A stretch of 64,000 bases of DNA from Microbotryum silenes-acaulis (taxonomy: Eukaryota; Basidiomycota; Microbotryomycetes; Microbotryales; Microbotryaceae): positions 744,001 through 808,000 of the forward strand of contig QPFY01000011.1 of the NCBI GenBank assembly GCA_003665825.1. Reading direction: 5' to 3'. Within the stretch, counting starts at the first letter, position 1. Every line of letters begins with the position of its first letter. The translations under genes were made by a program, and so were the position numbers. The notes under the pieces were generated by a model. That model saw only the letters and a list, made by a program, of their open reading frames with translations. It was not told the DNA's origin and did not search any database. Of the stretch, positions 8,317 through 35,010 are shown piece after piece.

Positions 8317-8378
8317 TTTTTTTTGTATGAAACTCATCGCTAATTTGCAAGACGAGAAAACCCCCTACGGAACTAAAG
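8317..8378. repeat. Target-site duplication of LINE-1, right copy (62 bp)
   Basis: Perfect match to 3917-3978. It is also the beginning of the longer diverged repeat at 8317-8475. The original, unoccupied target was therefore this repeat, and the left copy was generated by insertion. Confidence 0.92.
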
Positions 8379-8475
8379 GAGATGCTGCCCAGTATGCACG
8401 ATGATGACCACAACCGCCGCTCGATGCGTTGCAACTAGCAGAACAGACCAACCCGATACATCCGAGTTCAAGTCC
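8317..8475. repeat. Diverged dispersed repeat, copy R1
   Basis: Similar, with gaps, to 15839-16010. Shared blocks include a T-run followed by GTA-GAAC, CCTACGGAA, ACGATGATA/GACACAA, CCGCC, GATGCG, ACCAAYCCGATAC and TTCAAGT-CCCC. The last block resembles a tRNA T-arm/B-box. Both copies touch the 5' end of a minus-strand LINE. Read on the minus strand the repeat ends in an A-run, so a tRNA-related SINE is possible. I cannot prove it. Confidence 0.5.
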
Positions 8476-9711
8476 CCCCCACCCACGGTTGCTCCCTCCC
8501 AGAGACGAATGAAAGGAAGATTGAAGATAATACACAAGGAATCGGGAAACGATGGAGGAATTGTTGGTGGTGGTACATGTGTTGTACAGGCGAATCCGAT
8601 TATAGTTGTACAGTTGAACCTTCTTCGATCTTTTGACTTCAGACCCCCCCTGAGACCGCCCTACTCCTTGAAGCCCCTTAATTCTTTGACACGCGTCGAA
8701 CAAGGCCTCCGATGGCACAAACATCCCGCTCAATCCGAATGATTCACGTGGTCCAAAGGGGGGATGTAACCCCCTGCGACCGCAGCAATCACCTACCCCT
8801 TGTACCCAACTGCGCTGGATCTGCACCGCGGATTCCAAACCCCTTTTCGGTTACCAAAGTCGGCCACCCCCTCGCGACCGCACGACCCCAGATCACCCCC
8901 ATTTCAATGACTGCAACTGCGAAACAGGCCTACTTCGCACAAAAACACACAATCCCGAGATTTCCGGGGAAAGTCACGGAGCATGTGACAGTCCATTGGA
9001 CACGCCTCGGTCTGCAGCGCGGGCGGGTGGCCGACAACACCGGCGCGCGGCTGGAGACCAGAGGCGGGGTATACCTTCCGCAGGGGCCTCGCTTCCCTGC
9101 GGCGTACTCCCAATCTCGGAACGCACACTCGAGTCCCGTTGTACGTGCAGGTGGTTCCCAATCACCGCAGATACTGGGGAAAGAAGGAGCATGAGGCCCA
9201 CGACGGTGATGTCATTGTGTGGGACCTCGCTCGAGTGTGGATGTGTATGGCGGTTCGGTACCCGAGTCACCCGCCGCGCGGCCGCGACTCCGAGCGAGCA
9301 GCAAAGCAAGGAGAGGCGAGCCACGCAGGCAGTTTGTGCCGGCCTTGAACAGGAGATCACGGAGTCGCTCGACCGAAAGAGAAGACAGACCCGGCCCTTG
9401 AGAGGAGTGGAAAACTCACGGCGTAGTCCAGGAGAGGGCCAAGGGGATCCGCTTTCGATGTGTGTCATCGTGATGTGGCAGAAGCTCGAACCAAGGGCGA
9501 CAATGCCCGCCGGCGCAAAGAACCCGAGGCTCCTGGGGAGTACGGAAGCCTATGAGGAGGAATGGCAAAAAGAGCGAGAGAAAACAGGTTCAGTATTCTG
9601 GCGTGTTTGGGAGACATTTTGGAGATTGAGAAAGAGGGAAAGGGGACTTGTGATTTTTATTTGGTTTTTGGTTTGTGGTTCTTGGCTGGGTAGGGAGGAG
9701 CGCCGTCTACT
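8476..9711. other. 3' region of LINE-2 and unassigned DNA
   Basis: Downstream (on the minus strand) of the LINE-2 ORF2 stop. An A-rich stretch in LINE-2 sense at about 9645-9690 could be near its 3' end, but there is no clean A-tail and no direct repeat matching the 5' flank. No protein-coding gene is recognisable in the rest. Confidence 0.4.
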
Positions 9712-12700
9712 TCATCGTGCCAATCTGAGCTCCAACCTCTCCTTCAGTCCCGCCATCTCCTTGTCCATGCTCGACATCGCTCTGGCGTGGCGATGGAGAT
9801 CCCAGCGTCGGTTGCTGAGAGTGTCGAGCGCCAGCGCAATGAAGGCGCGGATTGGGCGCTTTTTCGACGTCGGAAGGCGAGCGCGCAGTCGAGGGAGGCC
9901 GTGCTCGATCTGAAGTGCCGTGTAGTCGAGGTCGAGGATCGACACGACCCCCAGCGCGTCGCAGAGAATGGACCTAGCTGCTTGCAAAAATTGAGAAGAG
10001 TCAGGGCAATCATGCCAAAAGTGAGTAAAGTCATCCTCCACCCCTGCCAGGCTGCATGCCTGCACAAGGCAGCAGGCTGAGTCGCCATGCCGCTGCACAA
10101 ACTGGCGCTTCCGCGTTGACGTGAAGTGGTACGCCAGCTTGAAGTGCACCTCGCGCTCGCGGGCCGTGGCGGGCCCGGTGTGGAACCACACCCAGAAGAG
10201 TCGCCTTTCTTTGGGTGTGGCGAGTGATCCAGGGCGTTGTGTGTCGTCGAAACGTCGATGGTTGATGACGCGTCGAAGTCGCGCAATGGTGTAAGGTCTA
10301 TCCAAGTTCAACATTCTCCACTGATCAGCACACAAGGGGCCGGAGGGGAGGGGAAGTTTTTGATCAGGCATGCCGACCGGAGTCGCTCTGGGCAAGATGT
10401 GCTCGAGGGGACCGCCGGGCCGGACTCCAGGTGCTCCAACAACACGAATGACGGGTGGTCGACGTGCGAGGACGGGAACAGGAGGCGGAAGCGGCGGGAT
10501 GAGGCGATCGCCTGCGACCTGGATCCACGCCTGGACTTGATCGCGCTTCCATTGCCAAAGGTTGGACAGCTCCGAGCCGTCGCCTTGGGGATGCTTCTCA
10601 GGGGTCCAGGGCACCGTTGGAGCTGCGGGGTATTGGGCTCGCGCATAGATGTCAGCGATGGTGCGTTCGAAACTGAAAAGCTTCGCCAAACGCTTATCCT
10701 GCTCCGAGAACGCCCGCGAGTCATGCAGACCAGGTTGGAGGGGAGAAAGAGAAAGAAAATTGGAGACCGAAAGTTTGGCAGGATCGACGACGGCAGGGTA
10801 GCGTTCAGCGACCGAGAGCACCGCTCGCCAGCGGGGATGTAGCTCCCGGGGTGCGTCGGCGTTCCTCCACGTCCACAGATCCGTAGCAAAGTCAAAGGTC
10901 GGAAGCGCTCGCCGGATGGAACTCCGAGCCAGATCGCTCCAAATCGCAGTTGACCCGCCGGCCAGCACGTCCCAAATCCGTACCGAGACTGAATCCACCA
11001 CATCTTGGATGCTCACGACGCTGAGACCACCTCGCGCCCGTGCCGTGAAGACGACCGATTGCTTGTAGTCGCTGCGCCGCGGTCCTCCCTTCACAAAGTC
11101 GGCAAGCTTGCGCTCGATCGCCTTGATCACGTCGGATGGCGGTACGTCGGCGGAGAGAGAGTGCAGCACCTTGGAGATGCCGTAGCGGTTGAGATAGAAA
11201 GCCCGGGTATGATGCGTCATCCATCGGTCGCGCACCGAGAGAATCACTCGATCGACCCTTCGCTCAAGATCATGGAATCCCAGCCTGTTGTTGCCGTCAG
11301 GCGCAAACTGGAGACCGATCCAGGGAAGAGACTCGTCCGGTGCCACGAACGACAGTTTGGACAAGTCCGCGCGATCCCACAACGTCGCGCCCAATGGCAT
11401 CACCACGGTTTTGTCGGTGTTTAGACGGCCGTTCGTCGCGAGTCGCCAATCCCGAGCTAACGCCTCGAGCGAAGCAATAGCTTCCGGTCCAGCGACAGCG
11501 ACGACGGCGTCATCCGCGAACGCCAAATTGGTGATGCATCGAGTCTGCGGACGAGGAGCCAGCTCCGGAAGAGTGATAGTCAGCGCAATGTTGCGTCGAC
11601 TGAGAGAATCAAGGAAGGGTTGGAATACCACATCCCAGACAGAAGAAGAGAGAGGATCGCCCTGGCCAAGACCGCACAGGAGTCGCACCGTCTCGGTAAG
11701 GAAACCGTTGACAATGTACCGCGCTGTGGACGTCTCGCCGTTGTAGAGCATCCGCAAGACGCGCTGGAAAGATTCCGGCGCGCCGAGAGCCTCAAACACC
11801 GCAAAGACCCAATCGTGCTCGACCATGTCGTAAGCCGAGCTCTGATCCAGGGAGAGGAGCGCTGCTGTCGGGAACTCTGCCCCACGACCCCTAATCTCGT
11901 CGATCAGGAGCCTCAGATGCAAAGCCGCGTCCGCTGGTCTTCGCCCCTTGACGAACCCATGCTGTCCGGCCGGAAGAACATCGGGGAGGATCCGGTTCAG
12001 ACGAGCCACGTAGACCTTGGTGAAGATCTTGTAGTCGCATTCCCGCAAGGTGATCGGACGATACGATTTGAGGTCGCACCGCGCTGCACCAGGTTTGTTG
12101 TGTTTGAACAAGAGGCGCACATTCGCCTGGCTCTGTTGTGGAGTAAGGGAGCCTCGAGTAATCAGCTCGTTGTAGGCTCGAGTCAAGAGAGGGGCCCAAA
12201 GCAAGGGGCAGGCTCGATACATCTCATAGGGGACCCCTGAAGGACCCGGAGATCGACCTTCGTGCGTGGTTCGAATCGCTGCGAGCACCTCGGCCTCGCT
12301 GATGGGCTCGGCAAGAATGTCGACGTGCGAATTCGAGAAGCGCCGAAGGAAGCGAGCGTCGGAAAGGGGGTCGTCACAAGGTCTTGCTGATCTGATGGGT
12401 CCCAAGAGCTCATCCCGCATCGTCACGACCTGTTCCGGATCCTTCGCTTCGACAAGGTAGTGCTGCTGGAAATGAGAATGGGTGTGCTCGAGCGCGCGCT
12501 CAATGTCAGTGGTGAGCTCGCCATCAGCGAGCCGGATACTCTGAAACTTCACATCCCGGGACCGAGCAGCCAGTTTGGCATGAACCGGACGACTGAGACG
12601 TTCCTCGGATGCAATCTCGGGAACGTGCGCCCTGATCCGGGACTGCCTTGCTCGCTCGTTCACAAGTTTGGTGAGAGCGTCGTGGGTGTTCGTCCAGTCG

Positions 12701-13752
12701 ATGATGTCAAAGGGACTCAGCACCCGACGAGACTCAATGTCCTGCAGTCGAGATACCAGCATCATCTCGAGGGCGTTGCGCTCCCGAAACAGACGCCGAG
12801 ACAGCTCGAGAGCTTGGACCCGAGACTCCGAGAGTACGCGCTGAAGGTCCGCGACCGGATCCCCAGACGGTGCTTGCTCAAGGAGAGGAGTGACGAACTC
12901 CTTAAACTCGGCGTGTTTGAAGGTCGACGAGTTGATGCGGGTCAGAAAATGAGCCGCCTGGGGAAGGCAGAGCTCCGCTTCGACCTCGGCACCACTTGCG
13001 CGCAGCCTAAATGTGACCGTAACCGGTCGATGATCCGACATGGATCGAGAGATATTGTACAGAGTGGAAGCAGAAACGATCCGTCGCTCGTGTCGCCGCT
13101 GCACCAGAACAAAGTCGATGCGCGCGCGCGAAATGAGCCGGCCGTCCTTGCTGAGATGCGGGCGCGTGGTCGCCGGCGACAGTGGGTGCATGAGCCGAAT
13201 GGCATCCGTGTACGCCCCGTCGAGCCGAGACATAAGCGCGGGCCAGTGGTGGGTGTTCGGGCGGTCCACCTGTCGCACTCGATCCACCGCGGGGATAGGG
13301 CAGTCGTTGAGATCGCCCGCGATGACCCGAATGTGAGAGGAGACGGTCGCCCGAAAGTGAAGGGAGGTGAAGAAGAGGAGGCGCTCGGCGGGTTGAACCG
13401 GAGCGTAGATATTGTTGAGTTCGACGACGTCCGTCGAACCCCGCACATCGAAGGTGGTCACGAGTAAGCGCCCGCCAAGAGACTGACGCGTGCGACGATG
13501 ACCACCGAGAAGAGGAGAAGAGCTTGGAATCAAAGTGAGGCAGTGTTGAGAAAAGTAGGCCTCGCCCTGGTGGGACTGGGCGTACTCGTGGCGTATGTGA
13601 GATTGTCGTGATTTAGGAACATTGTGTTCCTGGAGAAGGATAGCAGAAGGGGGAGGTGTGAGCGAAGTGAAATACGAAAGAAGCAGACGACGTCGTTCAG
13701 GGGTATTGAAGCCCCTGTTGACGTTCCAGGTCATGATGATGAACTCAATCAT
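9712..13752 (-). CDS. LINE-2 ORF2: APE endonuclease / reverse transcriptase
   Basis: 1346 aa, uninterrupted. The endonuclease fills the first ~250 residues: MTWNVNRG, LQEHN (catalytic Glu), NIYAPV, IAGDLND (Asp/Asn), ARIDFVLV and SDHRPV (catalytic His). The reverse transcriptase follows, with RSPGPSGVPYEMY, SLDQSSAYDMVEHDW, GLGQGDPLSSSVW and catalytic FADD. Near the C-terminus is a C-x4-C-x10-H-x4-C zinc-like motif after a Trp- and Arg-rich stretch. I see no RNase H. The start ATG overlaps the ORF1 stop (TAATG). The enzyme nicks target DNA and primes cDNA synthesis on it. Compared with LINE-1 the motifs align well but the intervening sequence is strongly diverged. A fungal L1/Tad-like clade is likely; the exact clade is unassigned. 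Confidence 0.95.
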   Translation of the reverse strand: MIEFIIMTWNVNRGFNTPERRRLLLSYFTSLTPPPSAILLQEHNVPKSRQSHIRHEYAQSHQGEAYFSQHCLTLIPSSSPLLGGHRRTRQSLGGRLLVTTFDVRGSTDVVELNNIYAPVQPAERLLFFTSLHFRATVSSHIRVIAGDLNDCPIPAVDRVRQVDRPNTHHWPALMSRLDGAYTDAIRLMHPLSPATTRPHLSKDGRLISRARIDFVLVQRRHERRIVSASTLYNISRSMSDHRPVTVTFRLRASGAEVEAELCLPQAAHFLTRINSSTFKHAEFKEFVTPLLEQAPSGDPVADLQRVLSESRVQALELSRRLFRERNALEMMLVSRLQDIESRRVLSPFDIIDWTNTHDALTKLVNERARQSRIRAHVPEIASEERLSRPVHAKLAARSRDVKFQSIRLADGELTTDIERALEHTHSHFQQHYLVEAKDPEQVVTMRDELLGPIRSARPCDDPLSDARFLRRFSNSHVDILAEPISEAEVLAAIRTTHEGRSPGPSGVPYEMYRACPLLWAPLLTRAYNELITRGSLTPQQSQANVRLLFKHNKPGAARCDLKSYRPITLRECDYKIFTKVYVARLNRILPDVLPAGQHGFVKGRRPADAALHLRLLIDEIRGRGAEFPTAALLSLDQSSAYDMVEHDWVFAVFEALGAPESFQRVLRMLYNGETSTARYIVNGFLTETVRLLCGLGQGDPLSSSVWDVVFQPFLDSLSRRNIALTITLPELAPRPQTRCITNLAFADDAVVAVAGPEAIASLEALARDWRLATNGRLNTDKTVVMPLGATLWDRADLSKLSFVAPDESLPWIGLQFAPDGNNRLGFHDLERRVDRVILSVRDRWMTHHTRAFYLNRYGISKVLHSLSADVPPSDVIKAIERKLADFVKGGPRRSDYKQSVVFTARARGGLSVVSIQDVVDSVSVRIWDVLAGGSTAIWSDLARSSIRRALPTFDFATDLWTWRNADAPRELHPRWRAVLSVAERYPAVVDPAKLSVSNFLSLSPLQPGLHDSRAFSEQDKRLAKLFSFERTIADIYARAQYPAAPTVPWTPEKHPQGDGSELSNLWQWKRDQVQAWIQVAGDRLIPPLPPPVPVLARRPPVIRVVGAPGVRPGGPLEHILPRATPVGMPDQKLPLPSGPLCADQWRMLNLDRPYTIARLRRVINHRRFDDTQRPGSLATPKERRLFWVWFHTGPATAREREVHFKLAYHFTSTRKRQFVQRHGDSACCLVQACSLAGVEDDFTHFWHDCPDSSQFLQAARSILCDALGVVSILDLDYTALQIEHGLPRLRARLPTSKKRPIRAFIALALDTLSNRRWDLHRHARAMSSMDKEMAGLKERLELRLAR

Positions 13753-13754
13753 TA
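13750..13754 (-). promoter_or_regulatory. TAATG stop/start overlap between LINE-2 ORF1 and ORF2
   Basis: The minus strand reads TAATG: the TAA ends ORF1 and its last A starts the ORF2 ATG. Overlaps of this kind drive termination-reinitiation in some LINEs (silkworm SART1 uses UAAUG). By inference ORF2 is translated by coupled reinitiation. Confidence 0.75.
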
Positions 13755-15746
13755 CGATCGCGCCTTCGTTGCAGCAGCAGCTCCCTTGATGGACAACATA
13801 GGTCCGAATGTGGGTGAGGGGAGCGGGTCCGCAGCAGTCGATTCGTTCCAGTCCGATGTGCGCGCGACGCTGGTGAGACGCTGGATACGCTCGGACCGGC
13901 GAAGACCCTGGGAACTTCCTTCGTCCACCTCCTGCTTGGGCTCGGACTCGGGATCAAACACTGGACCTGGAGACGGCGAAGGCATCCAACCGGTCACAGA
14001 CGGGGTGCGGTCCAACTCGGTGATCTCATCGTACAGACCGGCATCCTGTTTGCGCTCGCGATCCGACACACGATTCATCCAGTCGTCGGGAAGGCCGTCC
14101 ATATCAAGCTGATGGTGACTGGCCGATCGGGACCGCGTCAGCTCAGGGGTATGCTCAGGAGTCGTCGAAACAATCTCAGGCACAGACCCCGTCTCGGCCG
14201 ACTGCGATTCCCCTTCTTCCGCGTCACTCGTCTCCGTGTGTTCCCCCTGGTTCCCCTCCGCTCCGCGGTCCTGCAGATCCGACAGATCCGAAAGCTCCAG
14301 CGGCGGCACTTCCTGCTGTTGTTCCAGCTGTGCCTCGACTACGCTCATCGCGTCCTCGTCGTCCTCGAGGGCCTGAGCGGGCTCCTCCTGCGCCTCCTCG
14401 GCTACGTCGCCGGCCAGACTTGCGAATGGGTTTGCGGCGACGATGAAACCGCGAGGGGCGGATGCTGTGGGTGTAGAGCTTTGTGAACGAGTAGGGTAGA
14501 CTCGTGGTGAGTTGTTAGTGTCCCTTGTGGGAGATGCGTTCTTCTTTGAACGCTTGGACGCGACAGGAGACATTGGGGGAGAGGGAGAGGCTACATCACC
14601 TCTGCGTTGTTTTTGGGGGGTCGAGGTTTGCTCGATGTTGCTTTGGGGCTCGGCCTGGGGCCTTTGGTTGTTGTTGTTTTTCTGGGAGGCCTGCTGACGC
14701 TGGACCGGCTTTTGAACGCAGTTGTCGGAGTGGCCTACAAAGCCGCATCGGCGGCACGAGGCTTCGGCCTCGTAGTCGTGGCGAAGGGGCGTGAGTGTTG
14801 CGAGTCGTCCCCGAAGGTCGATCCTCGTCGGTAGAACCTGCCGAAGTTGAGCACCGTTGTTCTTGAACAGGTCGTCGTCGTCGAACTGGACGATGGCCGC
14901 GTAGTTTCCTCGAGCGACGAGGTACGAGCCTTGAACGACCGTTAGAGGCTGCTGGAGTTGGAGCAAGTCGCACTTGTGGCCGTCCCCGGTAAGCTTGGCG
15001 ACGACGCCTTGCAGTTTGTTCCAGAGGTCGTCGTTCGTGTATTCGGCCTCAGGACTGATAATGAAACGCAGTTCGACGACGTTTTTGACGAACGCCAAGC
15101 GCTTGCGGACTTGGGCAAAGGAGCGTTTCCACTCGATCTTGGTCGCCGCGTCGTGGACTTGGTCGAGCGCCGCTGCGCTAGCGCAGCGCACCACGAACTT
15201 GAACCGGGTGTTACCGCTTTGGATGATCGATTCCGGTGCGACTCCATGGATGATTGGAGCGTATTTCTGGAGCTCGGGCGGGAGGACAACTCCTGCGGGC
15301 AGGTTAAAACACAACGACGTGTCGGGCGACAGGGTACGGAGCACCTTCGAGTACAAGTCGGACTTCTCGCGTTCGGTGGCCACGCCGGTGTGTTCGAACG
15401 TGACTTCCAGAACGGCACCAGACGTGTCGGTAATTGGTTTCGTTGCATTGAGTGCGCTGAAGCGCAGGGAGGTGGCCCGGTCCTTGCCGAAGCCGAGTGC
15501 GTCTTTGAGCACAAGGATGCGGGTGCCCTGGCGTGTGCCATCTTCGACACTGATCATCTTCAGGATTCTCGCGACATCCTCTTTCCTCTTCTTTTCTTCA
15601 TCACGCTTTTCCTGGTACAGCGCTAGGCCGGGGTTCGCTGGTCCCTCGGCGGCATCGGCTTCCGCCCCCGCGTCACCACGTGGTTGTCCCGTCGCTGCCG
15701 GCTCCGGAGGGCCGCGGCCCGGATCAGGCGGTGCCTGGTCGGACAT
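13752..15746 (-). CDS. LINE-2 ORF1: gag-like nucleic-acid-binding protein
   Basis: 664 aa. The N-terminus is Pro/Gly/Ala-rich, with a charged Lys/Glu stretch near residue 50-65. The middle third looks globular. A zinc-knuckle-like motif C-x2-C-x4-H-x3-C lies near residue 335 (the usual knuckle has x4 in the last gap). After it the chain is low-complexity: Gln/Asn/Ser/Pro-rich, then acidic. ORF1 proteins of two-ORF LINEs bind the element RNA and form the ribonucleoprotein. The stop TAA at 13754-13752 shares one base with the ORF2 ATG. The assignment comes from position, the knuckle and composition, because ORF1 proteins are poorly conserved. Confidence 0.85.
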   Translation of the reverse strand: MSDQAPPDPGRGPPEPAATGQPRGDAGAEADAAEGPANPGLALYQEKRDEEKKRKEDVARILKMISVEDGTRQGTRILVLKDALGFGKDRATSLRFSALNATKPITDTSGAVLEVTFEHTGVATEREKSDLYSKVLRTLSPDTSLCFNLPAGVVLPPELQKYAPIIHGVAPESIIQSGNTRFKFVVRCASAAALDQVHDAATKIEWKRSFAQVRKRLAFVKNVVELRFIISPEAEYTNDDLWNKLQGVVAKLTGDGHKCDLLQLQQPLTVVQGSYLVARGNYAAIVQFDDDDLFKNNGAQLRQVLPTRIDLRGRLATLTPLRHDYEAEASCRRCGFVGHSDNCVQKPVQRQQASQKNNNNQRPQAEPQSNIEQTSTPQKQRRGDVASPSPPMSPVASKRSKKNASPTRDTNNSPRVYPTRSQSSTPTASAPRGFIVAANPFASLAGDVAEEAQEEPAQALEDDEDAMSVVEAQLEQQQEVPPLELSDLSDLQDRGAEGNQGEHTETSDAEEGESQSAETGSVPEIVSTTPEHTPELTRSRSASHHQLDMDGLPDDWMNRVSDRERKQDAGLYDEITELDRTPSVTGWMPSPSPGPVFDPESEPKQEVDEGSSQGLRRSERIQRLTSVARTSDWNESTAADPLPSPTFGPMLSIKGAAAATKARS

Positions 15747-15838
15747 CGGGTCGATAGCTGGTGTAGCAGTTGATGTATTCGATGTATTGACGTTTGCAGA
15801 GGTAGGGTAGTGCGATTGGGATGAAAGATGAAAGATGT

Positions 15839-16010
15839 TTTTTTTTTTTGTAGAACTTGTTCATCATATTGCCCCCAGTTCATGTTCCCCCTATTTGGCC
15901 TACGGAAAAACTAGATGAAAGTCGACGATGATAACACAAACCGCCCGCAAGATGCGAGAAACGGGCCGGTGTCCACCAATCCGATACTTGGGATTCAAGT
16001 GCCCCAGATG
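15839..16010. repeat. Diverged dispersed repeat, copy R2
   Basis: Starts with a T-run at the 5' edge of LINE-2 and ends about 58 bp before the tRNA gene. It matches R1 (8317-8475) in a series of conserved blocks, including CCTACGGAA, ACGATGATAACACAAACC, CCGATAC and ATTCAAGTGCCCC. See R1 for interpretation. Confidence 0.5.
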
Positions 16011-23815: not shown

Positions 23816-25221
23816 ATGACTACGGAACGAGTCTCAATTTGCGTCGTCGGAGCTGCAGGTCTGATCGGGTCGAGGCACACACAACACTGCTTGGATGAGG
23901 AGCAAGTCGACTTGAGCTGCATCGTTGACCCGACTCCGGCGGCGCTTGACTTGTCGACTAAACATGGCGTGAGCTTGCACCATTGACTGGAGGGGAGCAC
24001 AAGTCGGAACATAACATTCGAAAAGCCAAATGTGCCCGTCTGATTGCAGCTCAAACTGTTTACCTCTGTGACGGGCATGCTTGCAGCTCGTGCAAAAGGT
24101 CAAGTCAAAGTCCAAGGCGCTATCTTAGCGACCCCGAACGCGACCCATGTTCCGCTGGCCAAAGAGCTCGTCGCACAAGGGGTGCACACTTTGGTTGAGA
24201 AGCCGTTTTGCAACGATATCCAGAGTGGCGAGTGAGTACCAGAGCTAAAGACGGCCCAATTTGTCGGAGAGCTTATGCTACGAGGTACCCGGGCAAACTC
24301 ATGATGCCAGAGAACTTGTTGCCCTCGCGAAGGAGAAGAACACCACTGTGCTGTGCGGCCACCAGCGTCGATTTGTAAGGTCCCAGTCCAATGCTCTGGC
24401 CTACGAGTTGCTGCGATCTGACTTGCCCCGATGGTCATATAGAACCCCGATATCCTCAATCTCAAACGCATCATCGAAACTGGAAAACTCGGACAAGGTT
24501 GGTTCGGCATTCTGGGCACTGTTCTTAGCAAAAGGGTTGAGAACTTTTTAATTTGGTTACCTGATTCGCAGTCATTGCTATTCAGGGCACATGGGCAACC
24601 AAGAAGCCGGCCGAATACTTTCTCGGAGCTACCTCGTGGCGCGCTGCGCCGGGAACAGGGGGCATCATGATGATCAACCTCGTGCGTAGTAGTAGCAGCT
24701 TCTTCCGAGGTAGCTCGATCTGGGCTGACCTGATCCAAGTTTAATCGAGCTCATGCTAGGTTCATGATCTGGATCTCCTCATCTTCCTCCTCGGACCCAT
24801 CACTCAAGTCTACTGCCATTTGTCACCTATCCCCTTTGATCGCGAGAAGCACCGCGTCGAAGAATCCGGTCTCATCTCGGTCCAATTCTCTTCCGGGGCA
24901 TTAGGGTCCTTCAACTTTTCGGATCGAATCGTCTCGCCTTGGAACTTTGAATCGGCGACGGGAGAGAACCCATTGTTCCCCAAGTCGGGTCAAGGATGCT
25001 ACAAAGTCATGGGCATGAAGGGCAGTGCCGAGCTACCTCAGTTGAACGTTTGGCATTACGAGAAGGGGGACCAGGGGTGTTGGACCGATGAGGTGACAAA
25101 GGGGGAGAGGGCATCGGTGGAGGATGTACCGCCTTTTAGGAGCCAGTTGAAGAATTTTGTTGGGGTGTGCAGGGGCCAAGAGGCACCGGGATGTTCGGCG
25201 AGCGATGCGATGAGGACATAG
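23816..25221 (+). pseudogene. Gfo/Idh/MocA-type NAD(P)-dependent oxidoreductase, 5' part, interrupted by transposon
   Basis: Six exons (23816-23968, 24050-24231, 24311-24374, 24443-24497, 24572-24681, 24760-25221) give 341 aa as the gene stands. The Rossmann fold starts at residue 7 (ICVVGAAGLIGSRH). The family motif EKPF follows ATPNATHVPLAKEL, and GHQRRF and HDLDLLIFLLGPI are also conserved positions. The family oxidises or reduces sugars and related polyols; the substrate here is not evident. The last codons run into the inserted element, whose first bases supply the TAG at 25219-25221. The lost C-terminal helix is preserved at 34935-35010. The shortened protein may still fold but lacks about 25 native residues, so I label it disrupted. 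Confidence 0.9.
25214..25217. repeat. Target-site duplication of the 9.7-kb transposon, left (GGAC)
   Basis: GGAC immediately precedes the left terminal repeat and recurs at 34931-34934. A reading with element ends CATAG and a 2-bp GA duplication gives the same empty site, so the duplication length (2 or 4 bp) is ambiguous. Confidence 0.75.
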
Positions 25222-25266
25222 CAAGAAAGGCCAAAACGAGGCGACCGTTTAGACCGGTGCCGCACC
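25218..25266 (+). repeat. Terminal inverted repeat, left (49 bp)
   Basis: Begins ATAGCAAGAAAGGCC and ends GGTGCCGCACC. The reverse complement of 34882-34930 matches 47 of 49 bases, with differences at positions 12 and 42. Confidence 0.92.
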
Positions 25267-25429
25267 TGGCCGGGAGGTTCGCCACGGTTCGGCGCGCGCG
25301 CGCGAAGTTTTTCACGGTGTGGGACCTCGAGGAGCGTCCATGACGGTGTGGGCACTTGAGGTGAGGTTGGTCACCGTGCATTTACTCGGTCCAAAGGTGG
25401 CAATTTGGTGCTCAGGGTTTCAGATTGTG

Positions 25430-25556
25430 CCGAGGTTCTTCAACTTCAGTACGAGGTTCTCCAACTTCGGCGTCAGGTTCTAAAACCTCGGTGGTAGGTC
25501 CGGTAACTTCGGAGTCAAGTTCTCCGAGTCCTTGCCGAGGTTGCCAATGGTTCAAG
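25430..25556 (+). repeat. Subterminal repeat array, left arm
   Basis: Five to six degenerate units of about 21-22 bp with the core AGGTTC-(3 nt)-AACTTCGG, for example GAGGTTCTCCAACTTCGGCG. The right arm carries the reverse-complement core AAGTT-(2-3 nt)-GAACCTCG. Such arrays are where TnpA-type proteins bind in plant CACTA elements. Confidence 0.75.
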
Positions 25557-26107
25557 ACCAGGGCTCGGGTTGCGCACGGTTCGCTTCGTTTACCAAGGGT
25601 GGAAGACCGGTCGAAAGAATTTGCACTCCTGAAACCTCCTTGATGCGGTGGACACGATCATAGTACACTGTACTGTTGGATCTTTTTTAACTGGCCGTAG
25701 CATAGGATTTCTGGTATGCAAAACTGAGTAGTAAAATCTACTGAGATACAGTGGGCAGTATGGCACACGGCAGAAGCGACGTTCGTTCGTCTTTGACTGA
25801 TAAGCATCTGTGTACAGGATCGAGTGGCTCTAAGCTCTCCATAGGCACAGTACAGTGCTGGGGCGGCTGAGATGATGTTTCTTCTGTTGGCGATGGGCCA
25901 GGTCTCGGATATCAGAAATTGAGTTGTTTTGCTGCTAGTGAAGTATTGTGGCTGGAATTGCTGCGGTACACGTTTGGTTGTGTTGTCGTACACTCGTAAG
26001 GTAAGGTGGAAGAACGTGTTATTGTTTGTTGTTGTAGCAGTCATGCCCGAATATCGCCTTTGTCCCCAATCCTCTCGCTCAATCGCCGCTGTGTTCCACG
26101 AAGCCAT
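25557..26107. other. Left arm of the transposon, no gene seen
   Basis: Non-coding stretch between the subterminal array and the stop codon of the companion gene. It probably contains that gene's 3' UTR. Confidence 0.5.
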
Positions 26108-28218
26108 TCAACCGTCTTGGAGGATGTCGTCCTCAGCATCGATTGTGTTGAGCACCCCTTCCCAATTTTCTTCAGAGTCTTCGTCCTCATCATCCGTGTG
26201 TGATGTAGATGCTTTGTTCGGTGATGTAGACCATTCGGGATTGCGGGGCGCTAGGTCTGGAACCGCATCCACCCAGTCGTACTCGTCTGGAGCATCCGTC
26301 TTTGGCATCCAACACTTGGTCGTAGCATACTGGGCGATGACCTCCGGTGCAACCCCTTCCGGCAGCTTCAGGGCTTTGGCCGTCACCCTGTCGCCTATCT
26401 CGTGCACTCGCTCGACGGCGGCTTGACGATCCCGGTACTTCTTGTTTGCATCCTGAGAAATGACAAAGGCGGGAATCACAACACACTTTAAAAGCGTCAG
26501 CAAGGGCGACGTTGCCGTGACGATGCCTGAATGAGAAAAAGGACTAACCTTGACCAACACGCCCTCTGCCGTTCGGAGCCCAGCTTGAAAGATTACTTCC
26601 ATTTGGACCAGAGCCGCTACCGACGAGCGAAGACGATGGATGAATCTTGAATCCTGTCGCAACTTTTGTTCGCTTGGATGAATAACTCCTCGGGGACCGA
26701 AATGGGTCGGTCCATAAACGCGCTCCACAGCTTCGATACTCGCCGCAAATTTGAGCTCTTTTGCGGGAGGTCGAGGCGCGTTTTTGCCCTTGGCACGAGC
26801 TTTGTGGCTGGAACAACGCGCAGGGCGCAGCAGCAGCGAATTGTCAATTCATGATCTGCGAACGAGGCGCGCGGCCGACTTACAAGCGCTTCAGGTATTC
26901 TTTTCCCGTGTCAGAAGCTAAGTAGTCTTGGGCGAGAGGTGTCGAATTTTTTCGCAGAACGAGATGCTTCTTCACGTCCCTGATCTTTTTGCGAATCGCC
27001 ATCTGGGGTACAAGAGGGTAGCCACTTAATTCGATGCTCGGCCTCGTGACTCAATGTCCGGTCGATGGGTGCATACCTCGGTGGTATTTACAGCTGTGAT
27101 GGTCCTGAAGTGACCAAAGCTTTGCTCACAGCGAGTCGCCCAATCACGTATGTTTCGTCTTCGGTCGAGATGTGAAGTTTAAATAGAGAGTAGAGCAAGG
27201 TCTCACGGCGTATCTCGGCCTGTAAGCGATGGGAGTGAAGTTGCATGAGCACAATCCGGCCTTCTGGAAAACTGAAGACCTTGTCTGAGGTGGCAGGGAC
27301 GAGGATGAAGCTCTGAGTGGACTCACCGATTGAGACCTTGTCAAAATGGCCGCCACCACGGAGCCGCCGAGGGGTTCGTCTCGGATTGATTCCGACTCCT
27401 CTTGACTCGAGTCAGAGCTTTCAAATTGATTCTTGTGGTATTTCCGGTTGCCAGAGGTCTTTCTGCGCTTGATCTCGGACGTGTCAATCGCATCGTTCGA
27501 AGCTCGGCGGACGTTTGTGGTGACGGGAGGCGTGCGAAGCTTATCTTTGCGACCTGGGATGACCGCTGGTAGGCATTAGACCATCAGAGACTCCCTTCAT
27601 ATCCCTCACTTCTTCGTCTGTACATACAGTGCTTGTTTTTGCTGGGCTTTCCCTTCGACAAACCCGAGTGCGACCGTTCCGAACGGGACCCACCGCCAGG
27701 CTTGATGGCCTCGATCGACGATTCGGAGGCGTCGGAGTCGTCCGACGATGTCTCGTAGTGGTCGGAGTAGTCGACGGTCGGGTAGCAAGCATTTTTATAT
27801 GTTGATTCGAAAGAAAGCTTGGTGGTACCCTGCATTAAAATGAACACGTTCCCTTGGGAGTCAGCTGCAGTACGCAAGAGCCAAACCCAGCAGATGTCAA
27901 CTCGAAAATTGACATCGCGCCAGCGCTGCGCCCGCGACTGACCGGTTTCGGCAGCATCAAATCGTGGCAATCCTGGGGCGAAGGGAACAGATCTTCGTAA
28001 AGCATCTTCTTAGTCCACCTGTCCTCCGGTTTCAGAATCCATTCCTTCCACCAGAGCAGCTCGATGGCGTGCGGGAGAAGTATGGCTCGGTCATCCAGTC
28101 GCCCGTTAGGGCCGAACATCGCGGCCATCCTCTCCCAGTAAACCGCAGCCGATTCGCCATCCTCAAGGCGCCAGGCAGGTGGGACCCGCAATTTCTTCTG
28201 CTTGAGCTTGCTGGTCAT
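26108..28218 (-). CDS. Transposon companion protein of unknown family (candidate TnpA-like factor)
   Basis: Eight exons read on the minus strand (28218-27943, 27829-27628, 27553-27327, 27271-27207, 27158-27077, 27002-26884, 26807-26549, 26452-26108). Every phase fits, giving 524 aa. I do not recognise the protein. The N-terminus has a compact, Trp-rich domain (PPAWRLEDGESAAVYWERM, ELLWWKEW). A Ser/Asp-rich acidic linker and a basic, Ser-rich stretch (IKRRKTSGNRKYHKN) come next. A helical domain includes RCEQSFGHFRTITAV and KHLVLRKNSTPLAQDYL. The C-terminus is acidic (HTDDEDEDSEENWEG). Alternating basic and acidic low-complexity segments fit a nuclear DNA- or chromatin-binding role. By position, a TnpA-like binder of the subterminal repeats is the simplest idea. 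Confidence 0.8.
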
Positions 28219-28627
28219 CGTAGTTGGTGCAAGAAGACCGAAGAATGAGCCGAGCAGTGACCGAACACCGCGAGTTCGAGAGGAGCGAGTGCCAATGGTC
28301 ACGATCAAGTGCGCGGCTAGCGCTAGAAGCTGTAGTGGGCGCCTGTCGGGCGGTCGGCCGCGGCCGGGTTGCGCAGGATTGCGCAGCGGTCGAACACCTT
28401 GTGCTGCAGAGACCGGTCACGACGCCGCCGCGTTGCCGAACTCAGTTGAAATCAGCGCTCAGCTCTCAGCTGACTTCTGCATACTCGGGATCGGACTAGC
28501 AAGACCCTCGCAGGATTTGTTGCCCGATTTCCTACCAGCCTACTCGAGGCGGTGCAGCCAGCTTCCGCCGTTCTTTCGTCAGTTTCTGAGAAGGTCCACT
28601 GCTGCCCGCGCCGACGGCGGCGACATC
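28219..28627. promoter_or_regulatory. Divergent promoter region between the two transposon genes
   Basis: A 409-bp gap between head-to-head start codons must drive both genes. No clear TATA box is seen. It is GC-rich, with several GCGG/CCGC palindromic runs around 28350-28420. Confidence 0.6.
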
Positions 28628-31600
28628 ATGCCAGGTAGCTTTATCCCGCTCGGACCGCGCCTGCACCCAGTCTCCGAACAGCCTGCCCTAACTAATACGC
28701 TACTGTCGTTGCTTTCCCACAGAAAATCGCGTCAATCGTCTGTTTTCTGCACCAGTACGAGCCTCGGCACCGACCCCTCTCGAATTGATCTTATCGACGC
28801 TGCCTCGATCCGAACCAGTTCCCGATCCCGTCCCAAGGCCTCAACCGCAACGGGAACATCGGCTCCTCCGACGTGCCGGTGTCGCTGATTCCGACGATAT
28901 CCTAAACCACGACTTCGGCGGAGAAGGCGAGATGCACATGGAAGACAATCGAATGGAAGTAGAACACGATCCGGCTTCTGATTCCATTGAATCCGAGTGT
29001 CAAGTTGAGGACGTTGACCCCGGGGAATCGCTCCAGATCGACCAAGCTCCGACGCTGCTTCGAATGCTCTTCCACCATGAGCATAGCGATGCAGACTCCA
29101 ACTCTAGCGCAGATGAGTCGAATATTCAATCTGAAACCAATAGCGATGACGAGGAGGAGCGCACCTCAGATCATGCATCCCAAGATGTCATGAACGTAGA
29201 CGACCCACAACGAGGCCAGCACACCCATGAGTTGCCTGCCGACGATCCTCGCAGGCCGGTTGCAGAGACCGGAGCGCGTCGGCCGGGGCCCCACCCATTG
29301 ACCTTCACCAAGCTCGCGCTTTTCAACATTTGTAAACAGTTTCACGTATCGGAAGAAGCATATGCCGCCTTTGCTCAATTGCTCCACGCAAGCTCGTTCC
29401 GTTTATCCGATGTGCCCCTTTCGTTCAAGACCGTGGAAACTCACGTCCGATCTCATCTGCACGTTCCACCAATGCTGTACCACGAAGTTCCTATCGATTC
29501 CTCCAAGCTTCACATGAGCACGCTTCAAAGATCTCACGTGCGTGCGTACAGTGTTTCCGTCGTTGACGCGCTCATCAATCTTGTGCTCAACACTCAGCGC
29601 CTGTGGGACGGGATGCACGAGGGCTTAGCGATGTTGAAGTCATTGCGATCCGAATTCTGGAATGGCGCAGTATGGGCCGAATCTGTGTTAGCTGCGCGCG
29701 GAAGCTACCCAATCATACTGGAGAATTGTAAGTCGATCCATCGCAATGAGGCTCGATATCTGTTATGCAGCTCGTTGAACTCCGTTGGTGCGTGGCTGTC
29801 ACAGGTGTAGATCGAGTGCATCCCGGCGCATGGATTGAATACTCCCGCCCCAGATCGGCCTGTTTTGAACACCAAGAAGATGCTGTGGGGCGTATCGAGT
29901 CTATCTGGCAGTCAGAGACTGGCGAGGTTCGGCTTCGAGTGCAACAGCTGCTCGACACGTCTCAGTTGGTCGCATTCGGCCAACTGCGTAAACTCGAGGG
30001 GTTTTCTACTCGGTACTGGATCAAACGCCGCTGCAAGGAGCTGGGTACTCCACCCGACGCTGACAAGTTCTTACTCCTCGACGAGTGCGACGAAATTGGT
30101 CTGAGCGCAGCTCGTTCGCGTCGTTCTGATGTGCTGGTTTACGGCTCGAGGCCGCCAATAAAACCATGCGCAACCAATCACCCGCAACCTACGGTCGTTT
30201 ATGTGAGCGGATTGCACTGGAACTGAAGAAAACAAGAGCTAGCTAATGATACCTGGGATAACTGATCCGATAGTTACTGGCGAATGTTGGGAATCTGACA
30301 ACGTGCGCCGAGCGCCAAGGGGGAAGGTTGAGTTCGAGCCGTCACCTGAGACCTACGATCGCCGAGCTCGAGATACACAACGGTGACATCGATCCCGACA
30401 CACTCCCTTTGAAACACGAAAGATCCCCAGAAGTAAGTCGTGTCGCAGACTGCTACTTCGTTCTTGTACTGCCCTGCCGATGATGGATCCTGTCTGCTCG
30501 TTTTCTAGCGAACCGTCTCCCTATCGCTCTACCATGACAACTTTTCTGTGTACCACACTACTTCTCATTCTGTCGGGGGGTTTTATGCGATGATAGCCAG
30601 TCTAGGCAAATCTGAGCGAGATGAGATGCGTAATCGCTTGATTCTGTCTTTCACGCCCCACGGTACGTCCATGGAGATGGCAACGATGCATTGCAGACGC
30701 ACGCCTTTTCCTTATGTGCATCATCAAAGGCTAACATTGGAACATTGGCTCTCAACTCCTCTGTCAAAGGGACCCAAGTGGCCGACGTTGCGATGCCACT
30801 ACTTAAGGAACTGGCCGATCTCGCCAAGAACGGCTTCCAGTACCAACGCGCAGATCACAGCTACGAGACCGTCTACGTCAAGGTCCTCTCCGGCCGCTTT
30901 GACATGCCCGAAGCTTCGAAGAATGCCGGTGTGTCCGGTCCAACAGCCGACTGCTCGTGCAAGACCTGTGATGTACCCCGTTCCGACTGGCCAGCTGTCT
31001 CCCGAGGCGATATCGACCTTTTCGAACACCAAAGGACTCCGGAAAAGCAAGCAGCGCTTCGGAAGGAACTCGCCACCTGCAGAACCGCAGCAGAGCGCCA
31101 GGCCAGGCGGCAGAAATTCGGTATCACCGGGACCGAGCCGCTTTTCGAGTCCGCCGGCCTCGCCTTTGACTGTCATCGTCAATTTCCCCTCGAGTTTTAT
31201 CACGTGCTTTCTGGTCTTTGCGGGCGAGTATACAGCACTATACTCAGTAGGTTATTGTCGACCAAGGGTCAAGAAGCGGCGAACTCGGCGGCGCAAGCGG
31301 AGCCTCCTCGCCGATTTCAAATCTCTTCATTCTTTGCCAGGGTAGGAAACGCTCGCGCGGTGGAGCAGTTCACCCATGCAGAGCAGATCCATTCAATACT
31401 GTTCGCATCGTCGTTCTTCTCGTTGGTACTGGGACCAAACAGCAAGGCTTTCATCTCCAAGACGGCTCATGAAAGCTTGCTAGCTGCCGGAGCAACTGTT
31501 GACGATGCACGAGGGCACGAGCGTCTAATCGAATCGCGGGACGACGTAGTGCGTGCCATCATTCAGACCTGCACTTTTATCGCCGAGCTTGTCGAGATTG

Positions 31601-32733
31601 TCTTTTCGCCCGCCGTTTCTGACGACGACATTCGCAGCCTCGGGTCTCTAATCTCGCGTTGCACTCGAAGAATGGTGAATCTGTTGGAACCCGTCATGGA
31701 CAAAACCAACTTGGCTCAACTCCCAAATCTTCACGCACTTCAACATGCTCAACCAGCCGCGTGGGACTTTGGCACTCCGTTGAACTCCAGTGCCGCCCTT
31801 GACGAAGCTGTTCATCGAACTGCCAAGCAGCTGGTCATCGTCACGAATCGTCGGGATATTACCAAGTCGTTCCTCGACAATGCCTTGGTGACACAAACGC
31901 TCAGCGCCGCCATCACAAGAACTGTCGATGATGAACTCTCCATCTTAACCAAGGGCATCTCTGTGCAAGCGCCCCGTGCGTTCCGAATGGAGAACATCGC
32001 GAACGACGACGCCGATGCCGATGCTGACGGCGATGCACGAAAAGTTCACGGAATGGTGACGACCTCGATCAAAGACGGGTCAGTATGCCCTATAACGATT
32101 AATTGCACAGGAGGGCCAGAACTTTATCATTGATTGGACCAACTTCCCTTTCCTCTCCGAAAAACAGCGTAGAAAGGGTTCGTCCGATGGGTCGTCTCGA
32201 CAGGAAGCAAATCCGTGCGCTCAGCCTAGAAGTCACACTCGCGGCGACCGATCTTGCCAAGCGACCCAACGGATTCGAGGTCGCCGCTGCTCTTCGAAAG
32301 TCTTTCGGCGTCGAATTTCCAGCGTGGTATTGGAGAACAACGGATCGCATCTTGTACCACCCGAAAGTACGGTATGATGATCGGATCCGAGCTCGACTGG
32401 TCACCGTGCGCGTCGGCGATTTTGTCGTTCTTGGTGCTCCACCGGATTCAAGAGACCGTGTCGTATTCGCCCAAGTCGAAGCAATTTTCAGCGTCGGACG
32501 AGACGAAAAAGTTCACCTTGCTCTTCGTCACGTGGATGGACGAGAGTCAGACGCGTAACTTAGGCTACCTTGGCCAGGTTAGAGTGCTCAAGCCTTTCCG
32601 CGCGGGGACTTCAGAGCGACCGAGAGTCATCGGGCTCGATGCCATCTCGAGCGAGCAAGGTGTGCCGATTCTGAGGGATTACACAGAGCTGGGACTGCAC
32701 ATCATAGTACCCTACCAAGTTTCGACAATCTGA
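28628..32733 (+). CDS. CACTA/Tnp2-like transposase
   Basis: Eight exons (28628-28634, 28723-29727, 29805-30202, 30274-30432, 30509-30662, 30770-32078, 32168-32545, 32583-32733) splice in phase to 1186 aa. The first exon codes for two residues; its intron has a classic CTAAC branch site. The N-terminal third is acidic and disordered. A BAH-like stretch (GRIESIWQSETGEVRLRV) is at about 350-420. The catalytic core follows, with SLYHDNFSVY (likely first Asp), SVGGFYAMIASLGKSERDEM, GRFDMPEA (likely second Asp) and a Cys motif (CSCKTCDVPRSDW). Later NLHALQHAQPA and EAVHRTAKQ match the pattern of fungal Tnp2-related transposases. A second VGDFVVL/FAQVEAIFS segment lies near the C-terminus. The last intron (37 nt) is the least certain join. 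Confidence 0.82.
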
Positions 32734-32995
32734 TGGGGTGTTCATGTGATCTAGGGTCACTTGCAATGACGTCGCATGAGAATTGCTCCAGTCTTCAAAG
32801 CGCTCTTCCTGCCGTCGGCCTTGTCGGAGGCACGGACACTTCGATGAAATCGATGCAGCAACCTTGCTCCAACCTCGTCAATGCATTTTTTTTCTCTCGA
32901 TGCCACCTGTTGATAAGAGAGAGACTTCGCTTGCGAGTGTGATTGTGAAGCTTTGGAGTAGTTGATCTGTCTGCGGAAATTCGACTGAGGGGAGT

Positions 32996-33002
32996 ATAAA
33001 TA
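32996..33002 (+). promoter_or_regulatory. TATA-like box in transposon right arm
   Basis: TATAAATAG follows GGGGAG, and a CT-rich stretch begins about 25 bp downstream. It may start a short or non-coding transcript toward the right end. No convincing ORF follows. Confidence 0.35.
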
Positions 33003-33293
33003 GGCACCCTGTCGTCGGTCCGCTCTTCTCCTTTGGCCAATCACTCGCCGCTCGCTCAAGTTGGACCTTTCACTCGGACTTGTATGCTACATGCAGACTT
33101 CGGTGACCTGGTGATCAACGAACGTATATCGCGCACAAGTCCCACTTTGAAGAACGTCGCGTCGTCGTCATCATCGTCATCTCGCTGCCTACTCCGTCGC
33201 ACCAACTTGTTCCAGCTCGGCTGTGCGCACGAGGTCATACCTACCGGAAGCCGCGTGACATACCATTCGCTAGGCTAAAGGTTCTAAGATTTG

Positions 33294-33330
33294 TCGTCGT
33301 CGTCGTCGTCGTCGTCGTCATCGTCATCTC
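33294..33330 (+). repeat. GTC trinucleotide microsatellite
   Basis: About eight GTC/CGT triplets in a row followed by CATCGTCATC. A shorter, related tract lies at about 33153-33182, and both are followed by a similar CGTCGCACCA-ACTTG or -CCTTG block. Confidence 0.7.
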
Positions 33331-34627
33331 GCCGACGATTACGTCGCACCACCTTGCTCTCTAGGTCGGCATTTCGATCCACGTTTTGCGTACATTCGTT
33401 TCAAGCCTACAATAGGGCCTTTGATCACCCGTTGCAAACCAGTCGTCGTCTTCTTCCAATTCTCACGCGCCATTCGAACACCTGTGGACGCTCGTTCAAG
33501 CCTGCTCGAGGCTATGACTCGATTCGCTCCCACCCATGTGCTGCGGTGCAAACGCCCACGTCCCCATGCCCACAAAAATATTTTCGCACGAACCATCACC
33601 TCCTTGTAAGTGCTTCACCGCTCTGGTTACTCCTCGTATGATCGTGGCGATACCAGCTTGTGCGACCACGTCGAGACTCGCTGTGGTGATGGCCCTGTGG
33701 GAGCTGCACTTGCGCTGACGCTTTCGCTCGTGTCTTAGTTCCTCAACAGCGATGTTACAGGTGAAGAACTTTTTGTTTCGAGCCCATCTACGACAGTCCC
33801 GGCGTCTATTCGTGCAGGGTGGGAGGGCCGAGCTATCAAGCTCCTAGCCAGAAGCATGACGTCATAGCCTGGCTCAAGCTTGATCAACAATCACCTTAGA
33901 TCTCATGTAGATCATAAGCCTTCTCGCCCATGCCATCGCCAACAAAGGTGAGTACATCCCATCAAAATACTGGTGCGCTTTCACGTTCCTTCCGAGCCCT
34001 GGGATCGTGCTTGATTGCGTCGCACCATCACCTGCTTACCGTGACGGTCTTCTCCAATCGATGACACCGTGTGAGTGAGCTTGTGGTGGCATACTGTACT
34101 GCTGATTTGGCTTGCTTCACAGCACTGGATTGGCTTGGGATGGTGGAACGTTCAAGTCCGATTCGTAGAATCGACCTCGCTGTCGGAGCTTCGCACCCCC
34201 TCTCGTCACGCTCGAGCTCCTTGTTTCGAAACACCCGAAGGACTGGCCCTCCTCGATCTCTGTCCTTGTTCAAAATAATATACTGACACACTATCATGAT
34301 CCAACCCATTCCTGTCCCAAACCCAGTCCAGACCTGGTCAAAGATTTGGCCTTGCACAGCTGTTTCTGATGATGATCAAAGTCGGTGAGTCCACTCAAGG
34401 TCATGGCACTATCGCTCGTGGTATAGTTGTGGGCTGGGTTTGCTAGTTCCTGTGCAAGGCGATCGATGCCTCTCTCGATTTGAAGAGGACCGTGCGAGTC
34501 CCACTGCTGTGGTTTAAAAACCTGAGCCGAAGTGAAACCTTTCGCCGCAAAGTCGTGAACTAGTAACTAAAGTTTAGCACTACGAGCTCAAATTCTAGAC
34601 CTTCGCTCAAAGTCCCTCGCCCAAGCC

Positions 34628-34820
34628 CCAAGTCCCAAACTTTATCTTTCAAGTCCTAAAACCCTGCCCCAAGTGTCAAACCTCGAGTCAAAGTTCCGAA
34701 CCTCGAGGCAGAGTTCTCAATCTCAGACCCAAGTTGAGAACCTCGCGCCCCAAGTTTGAAACTTCGCCACCCAAGTTCAGGACTACGAACACGGTTCCGG
34801 AACCTTGGGCTCAAATTATA
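34628..34820 (-). repeat. Subterminal repeat array, right arm
   Basis: Seven or more degenerate ~21-bp units, such as CAAGTTGAGAACCTCGCGCC and CAAAGTTCCGAACCTCGAGG. They are the reverse complement in type of the left-arm units, so the arms are inverted copies beyond the 49-bp TIRs. Confidence 0.75.
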
Positions 34821-34881
34821 CCCGGTTCCCAACTCTGGCACCTGGTGCCACATGGTGTAGGGGTTGCCAACTTCGGGCGGT

Positions 34882-34930
34882 GGTGCGGAACCGGTCTAAA
34901 CGGTCGCCTCGTTTTGGCTTTTCTTGCTAT
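34882..34930 (-). repeat. Terminal inverted repeat, right (49 bp)
   Basis: Reads GGTGCGGAACCGG ... TTTTCTTGCTAT on the plus strand. It is the inverted partner of 25218-25266 with two mismatches. Confidence 0.92.
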
Positions 34931-34934
34931 GGAC
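34931..34934. repeat. Target-site duplication of the 9.7-kb transposon, right (GGAC)
   Basis: GGAC follows the right TIR directly. See 25214-25217. Confidence 0.75.
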
Positions 34935-35010
34935 CATGAGAACGATGGAGGCACTTCTGCACAGTGCTCGAACTGGCCAGCCGGTAGTGATTGGAGATGG
35001 AACTCATTAG
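34935..35010 (+). pseudogene. Displaced 3' end of the Gfo/Idh/MocA oxidoreductase gene
   Basis: Joined to position 25217 this gives an open frame of 25 codons and a TAG at 35008-35010, encoding the C-terminal helix and tail (MEALLHSARTGQPV). That matches the SARTG-P-V ending typical of this family. The combined gene would encode 365 aa in perfect frame. The fragment has no stop or frameshift of its own. It is separated from the rest of the gene by the 9.7-kb element. Confidence 0.88.

Follow-up and report, generated by a model that had tools for sequence, protein, structure and literature searches.

The present study describes a DNA transposon, named E1, that lies in a window of 64,000 nucleotides (the whole stretch analysed, from contig 11 of the Microbotryum silenes-acaulis assembly GCA_003665825.1). 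E1 is bounded by terminal inverted repeats (TIRs) ending in CATAGC, is flanked by a 2-bp target site duplication (TSD), bears mirrored subterminal repeat arrays and carries two genes, one for a transposase and one for a companion protein. It is quite likely that E1 belongs to a low-copy family of cut-and-paste elements of the CMC/CMCT clade whose companion is a DNA-binding accessory protein. Its assignment to the CMC-related transposons is fairly safe, and it is plausible that E1 represents a new, perhaps deep, lineage of this known class. A preliminary description of the window, made from the letters alone, had already recognised a DNA transposon with TIRs and two divergent multi-exon genes; both are confirmed here, with the bounds refined to 25217-34931. 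The genome searched for copies comprises 29.85 Mb in 88 contigs, and the copy counts obtained from it are lower bounds. At least six other loci belong to the family (C7, C2, C4, C13, C18 and C11b, named by contig), and none of them is intact. The coordinates of the features are collected in Table 1.

Ends, target site duplication and subterminal arrays

The two ends of E1 agree at 48 of 50 positions, which adjusts slightly the 49 bp with two mismatches described before; beyond 50 bp the similarity is weaker (84% to 69 bp). A query of 75 bases from the left end found ten places in the genome, namely the two ends of E1, seven ends on five other contigs (two each for C7 and C2, one each for C4, C13 and C18) and one internal piece of C7 that lies within an inverted segment. 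The TIRs of E1 are thus not a chance pairing, since the same sequence marks further ends on other contigs. Weaker matches to the TIR core were also considered: 12 of 21 lie outside the family, and the four that were checked over 50 bp gave 25-30 identities (one shuffled locus gave 23) and were rejected as TIRs.

All three copies with two ends (E1, C7 and C2) have the termini CATAGC...GCTATG. With CATAGC taken as the end, the flanking dinucleotides are GA/GA in E1, TC/TC in C7 and TC/TC in C2, so that the short target duplication reported earlier holds as a 2-bp duplication in every two-ended copy. The chance of three such agreements is about (1/16)^3 for a fixed register, the register here having been picked after the flanks were seen. 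A 4-bp duplication, GGAC, fits E1 alone and fails in C7 and C2.

The mirrored arrays of about 21 bp were tested by autocorrelation of self-identity against 300 shuffles, taking the best of lags 5-69, together with a scan of the 64 kb at lags 20-22. Self-identity was 0.472 at lag 21 in the left array (shuffle maximum 0.436) and 0.464 at lag 20 in the right array (shuffle maximum 0.385), which bears out the arrays, and cores like CGAGGTTCnnnAACTT stand in mirrored orientation on the two sides. In the scan the right array took ranks 1-3, a place at 48701 came fourth and the left array fifth. The left array must be regarded as the weaker of the two, because the place near 48701 scores about as high. 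The region of the window at 48651-48950 has a 20-22-bp periodicity of its own, about equal in strength to that of the left array. The core pattern (GAGGTT, 3-4 bases, AAC) has seven matches in 64 kb: two on the forward and one on the reverse strand in the left array, two on the reverse strand in the right array and two elsewhere. In four of the five copies that cover it (C7, C2, C4 and C18, not C13) the right array is longer than that of E1 by 20 or 40 bp, and the extra length sits at two places in C4 and C18. A motif scan with a consensus biased to the left array found few units in the right array and had 30 of its 40 matches elsewhere; it was replaced by the autocorrelation.

The transposase gene

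The hand-made model of the transposase gene encodes 1183 residues; automatic gene models agree with it on some exons and differ on others. The protein has a DDE triad, its residues chosen by eye, with C(2)C (C638/C641) and H(3)H (H896/H900) between the second D and the E. The host genome has a CACTA family of its own, recognised at six places by PF02992 (C21, C1, C19, C5, C46 and C35); its ends read CACTG, and two copies show 3-bp duplications (TGC and AAA). The DDE core of its Tnp2 transposase has nearly the same motif spacing as that of E1: 86 residues in E1 versus 90 between the first and second D, 19 in both from the second D to C(2)C, 255 versus 284 from there to H(3)H, and 20 in both from the second H to the E. 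The stretch SK..G..GPTA...C..C, from the second D to C(2)C, is also common to the two. When the core of E1 was compared with that of the host family by hhalign, each as a single sequence, the score was 33.7 (P 0.0017) and all 60 shuffles scored lower (maximum 22.9). The earlier proposal of a CACTA-related transposase with ends other than CACTA agrees well with these results, as E1 shares its catalytic signature and motif spacing with the host CACTA family while its ends are CATAGC.

The gene had been described as uninterrupted through eight exons, as had the companion gene. Eight exons hold for the transposase only with an intron of 46 nt, and the companion gene is modelled here with seven. 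Towards the 3' end of the transposase gene there is a one-base length difference between E1 and each of C7, C13 and C4, and C11b differs by nine from these three; the four copies together thus point to a change of length in E1. The last exon boundary (32531/32578) is doubtful for this reason. The simplest reading would be that the common frame has no intron at this site and that E1 is shifted for its last ~75 residues, or that there is an assembly error in a run of one base; alternatively, the frame also stays open in E1 with the 46-nt intron. Under either reading the catalytic residues are encoded upstream of this site.

Counted upstream of the length difference, the ratio of replacement to silent changes, each as a proportion of its sites (pN/pS), between the transposase of E1 and that of the other copies was 0.62 for C7, 0.46 for C2, 1.21 for C13, 0.51 for C4 and 0.59 for C11b, with binomial p of 0.06 (C7), 0.003 (C2) and 0.005 (C11b). 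The ratio exceeds 1 for E1 versus C13, and also for C7 versus C13 (1.66), on few changes. There is one in-frame stop in the transposase of C2 and there are two in that of C11b.

The companion gene

The companion gene is transcribed away from the transposase gene, across a spacer of 409 bp. Of the automatic models, one has six exons and another seven partly different ones. The gene is clearly under purifying selection: its pN/pS is 0.16 against C7 (10 replacement and 19 silent changes), 0.35 against C2, 0.37 against C11b and 0.44 against C4 (85 codons), with binomial p of 1.5e-6 (C7), 5.9e-5 (C2) and 2.3e-5 (C11b). It should be noted that 20 of the 29 exon differences from C7 fall in a single patch, 26884-27219. 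Stretches of the protein are rich in lysine, and its tail is acidic. All 34 companion matches listed in the genome lie within copies of the family, hence no paralogue was seen among them outside the family, whether at a host locus or in a different element. By analogy with plant elements, the companion is most likely a TNPA-like accessory protein that binds the subterminal repeats.

Insertion into a host gene

E1 interrupts a gene for an oxidoreductase of the Gfo/Idh/MocA type, whose last 24 residues are replaced by a stop that the TIR supplies. When the flanks are joined without E1 and one duplicate, the match to PF02894 (the Gfo/Idh/MocA C-terminal domain) gains in score, from 31.4 to 50.7 bits, and its end on the profile shifts from position 196 to 216 of 218, the joined match covering 48-216. 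The insertion is taken to be real because the joined flanks restore both the open frame and the domain match.

Copies in the genome and history of the family

The two-ended TIR copies elsewhere bracket the same genes in whole or in part, the other loci being truncated or rearranged remnants of the element, so that the condition set beforehand for refuting the element, TIR copies that do not bracket such genes, is not borne out. C7 (C7:582237-592037) is ~97% identical to E1 and has both genes, with its left half (25258-30346 of E1) inverted so that the transposase gene is split; the inversion runs between the TIR and the position equal to 30346 of the window, a few bases overlap at both junctions, and an exon bears an 11-nt insertion. 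C2, ~95% identical, retains the companion gene together with the 5' portion of the transposase gene and is contiguous across 30346, which indicates that the segment order of E1 is older than that of C7. At C2:1383505-1389761, long Gypsy-like and Copia-like frames, read by eye, replace the central part of the element. C13, C4 and C18 are truncated, and C11b is a rearranged relic elsewhere on contig 11 (86-93% identical), found through matches to transposase DNA and protein.

The divergence between E1 and C7 is patchy, being 8-10% in 26884-27219, 3.7-6.4% in parts of 28219-29727 and mostly <2% elsewhere, and in the first patch C11b is the copy closest to E1 (127/127 in one intron). This pattern suggests that gene conversion has probably taken place between copies. 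Over 6583 positions common to E1, C7 and C2, private changes number 98 in E1, 33 in C7 and 138 in C2, and by this count E1 is not the youngest sequence. A signature like that of repeat-induced point mutation was not evident at TCG/CGA, which account for 9 of 165 differences to C7 and 18 of 240 to C2.

It has to be asked whether E1 is a dead, recombined relic in which the constraint on the companion reflects past activity. This reading is compatible with membership in a CMC/CMCT family, and its probability is evenly balanced. The one-base difference in the transposase gene, the patchy divergence as after gene conversion, the six other broken loci and the excess of private changes over C7 all favour it. 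On the other hand, the catalytic residues and the earlier exons of E1 are open, its TIRs are nearly perfect, and the severed end of the host gene has kept its open frame, as would not be expected of a very old insertion. The suggestion that the element is possibly still active is weak, because the transposase differs near its 3' end and the other loci are broken. E1 probably represents a resident copy whose transposase gene is damaged at its end, rather than a proven active one.

Placement of the element and alternative explanations

Several results weigh against the view that E1 is a CMC/CMCT element with a DNA-binding companion. The loose order of the transposase motifs also occurred in 19 of 2000 shuffles. 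The only Pfam match of the transposase was to Plavaka (PF18759), at 13.3 and 11.4 bits (E 0.049 and 0.18), below the cut-off of 26.3 bits. Two homologue searches, limited to the 7991 and 7995 candidates with the most 5-residue words in common, found no relative, either with residues 190-1000 at E<=0.01 or, in a query trimmed to 970 aa, with residues 545-965 at E<=10; distant relatives could have been missed because of this limit. With neither a Pfam match above cut-off nor a homologue, the placement in the clade depends on motifs chosen by eye together with a single weak profile match between individual sequences. An AlphaFold prediction for one exon (436 aa, single sequence) had a mean predicted local distance difference test score of 34 and gave no usable model, so it was not used. 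The constraint on the transposase is weak (0.62 and p 0.06 against C7, 1.21 against C13), and the terminal hexamers at the single ends of C13 and C18 are altered from CATAGC. The companion, which was compared with Pfam and its own genome only, has no Pfam domain, and in the hand model it has one in-frame stop each in C7 and C11b. The database used for the homologue searches does hold fungal proteins, as a host Plavaka query returned three relatives (two from Microbotryum, one from Phenoliferia). No sequence match to the PDB was found.

It could also be argued that E1 is a true EnSpm/CACTA element with a changed terminal hexamer. The host Tnp2 family is indeed the closest relative tested, and in plant CACTA elements subterminal arrays and a second DNA-binding protein have been described (PMC2613891; here and below, statements on published elements refer to parts of the cited papers). 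This is unlikely, as the ends of the host CACTA family have stayed CACTG and its duplications measure 3 bp, where E1 has CATAGC and 2 bp, and PF02992 (Transposase_21) has none of its six places in the window and no match in the Pfam scans of the element proteins.

A divergent member of Plavaka, a fungal CMCT lineage present in this genome, with ends drifted to CATAGC, is rather improbable: Plavaka gives the only Pfam match of E1, the nearest published end found is that of PlavakaB (CATCA..TGATG, TSD 2-3 bp; PMC12730594), and a two-sequence Plavaka alignment scored 23.3 by hhalign (P 0.044) over the part from H(3)H to E, exceeding the 95th percentile of 60 shuffles (20.4), but the Pfam match lies under cut-off, the alignment score is below the shuffle maximum of 25.5, single Plavaka proteins score at shuffle level (15.7 and 14.9) against 33.7 for host Tnp2, and the SK..G..GPTA...C..C stretch is common to E1 and Tnp2.

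For a CMC/CMCT element with an accessory companion, the further question is how deep its separation goes. Within Pfam, the word-limited protein searches and the literature search, both the ends and the transposase look to be new, and the companion does so within Pfam only. A literature search for inverted-repeat transposons with CATAGC ends found none, a result of little weight. The new lineage proposed in the preliminary description is therefore plausible in respect of the missing homologues and the sub-threshold Pfam match; the two-gene layout is not new, since Sly1-1 provides a precedent in fungi (PMC4592977). It may tentatively be supposed, with more doubt than confidence, that E1 founds a separate CMC lineage at the level of ESTA or CNEST, defined by CATAGC ends, a GA/TC target and an obligate array-binding companion, and forming an independent fungal counterpart of TNPA/TNPD.

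Table 1. Features of E1 and of the interrupted host gene (positions in the window)
Feature	Position	Strand	Details and basis
Whole element E1, CATAGC...GCTATG, 9,715 bp	25217..34931	.	TIR pair and family copies
Target duplication, left copy, GA, 2 bp	25215..25216	.	Same register gives TC/TC in C7 and C2
Target duplication, right copy, GA, 2 bp	34932..34933	.	Flank comparison
Left TIR, 50 bp	25217..25266	+	End-to-end comparison
Right TIR, 50 bp	34882..34931	-	48/50 identical to left TIR
Left subterminal array, ~21-bp units	25396..25560	+	Core like CGAGGTTCnnnAACTTCGG; lag-21 autocorrelation above 300 shuffles
Right subterminal array, ~20-21-bp units	34581..34820	-	Core mirrored; autocorrelation; copy lengths differ by 20-bp multiples
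Companion gene, 509 aa, 7 exons	26108..28218	-	28218-27943, 27829-27628, 27565-27327, 27219-27130, 27002-26884, 26807-26549, 26452-26108
Spacer between divergent start codons, 409 bp	28219..28627	.	Presumed bidirectional promoter, from position; 6.4% different from C7
Transposase gene, 8 exons	28628..32733	+	28628-28634, 28723-29727, 29805-30202, 30274-30432, 30509-30662, 30770-32078, 32168-32531, 32578-32733
Catalytic core	30509..32078	+	D533, D619, CKTC 638-641, HALQH 896-900, E920; motifs by eye
Host Gfo/Idh/MocA oxidoreductase gene, 3' part	24760..25221	+	TIR gives early stop at 25219-25221; PF02894, 31.4 bits alone
Severed end of Gfo/Idh/MocA gene, to own stop	34934..35010	+	Joined flanks open to stop

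Elsewhere in the window, 5767-15860 on the reverse strand contains two long frames with PF00078 reverse transcriptase domains (5767-8313 and 9712-13953), which are retrotransposons.

Possible mechanism and significance

By cut-and-paste chemistry, the DDE transposase of E1 would cut at the CATAGC ends, and integration with a 2-bp stagger would produce the GA or TC duplication. The companion could recognise the mirrored units of ~21 bp and help in drawing the two ends together, as a counterpart of the TNPA of maize En/Spm, and the spacer between the start codons may serve as a bidirectional promoter of both genes. Through Transib, CMC transposases are related to RAG1 (PMC12730594), and newly found lineages that differ in ends and stagger inform how the cutting rules of this enzyme class change. 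With mirrored arrays and a conserved second protein in a fungus, it would become testable outside plants whether two-protein end recognition had a single or a repeated origin. The family can also be used in annotating related fungal genomes.

Comparison with known systems

In plant CACTA elements the tasks are split between TNPA and TNPD, and the job of TNPA is reportedly done by unrelated proteins across elements (PMC2613891). The EnSpm/CACTA elements (maize En/Spm, Tam1 and soybean Tgmt*) resemble E1 in their subterminal repeats and second DNA-binding protein (PMC2613891). They differ in their CACTA/CACTG ends and 3-bp TSD, and the TIR of Tgmt* has 13 bp as compared to 50 bp in E1 (PMC2613891). 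SmTRC1 is likewise related to CACTA; its TIR measures 54 bp, and 7 of 14 copies have a direct repeat of 2 bp. Unlike E1, it is an animal element with CCC ends and a Transposase_21 domain (PMC1636069). The TSD of KDZ elements, 7-8 bp (PMC12730594), does not agree with the 2 bp of E1.

Among fungal elements, PlavakaA and PlavakaB are CMCT members with a TSD of 2 or 2-3 bp, and the ends of PlavakaB begin with CAT; the ends of the two, TGT..ACA or CATCA..TGATG, are unlike those of E1 (PMC12730594). The host genome itself has at least 73 Plavaka matches, apparently of more than one family, many of them near-identical and some in inverted pairs. ESTA (PMC12730594) and CNEST (PMC12810828) are fungal CMC/CMCT lineages that share the 2-bp TSD with E1, but their TSD is TA as against GA/TC in all three two-ended copies. 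CNEST is ~7.2 kb long, with 33-bp TIRs, CACGG ends and one gene annotation named (PMC12810828).

Sly1-1 of Neurospora crassa is a fungal CMC element of 11.5 kb which, like E1, combines a transposase with a gene of unknown function and shows C(2)C and H(3)H; homologues of its gene pair are divergently transcribed, and the likeness to E1 lies in layout and motifs, its TSD being at least 3 nt (PMC4592977). The traits of the CMC/CMCT clade as a whole are C(2)C, H(3-4)H, mostly CA..TG ends and a TSD of 2-5 bp (PMC12730594), and E1 shares them with its DDE core containing C(2)C and H(3)H, its CA..TG ends and its 2-bp TSD.

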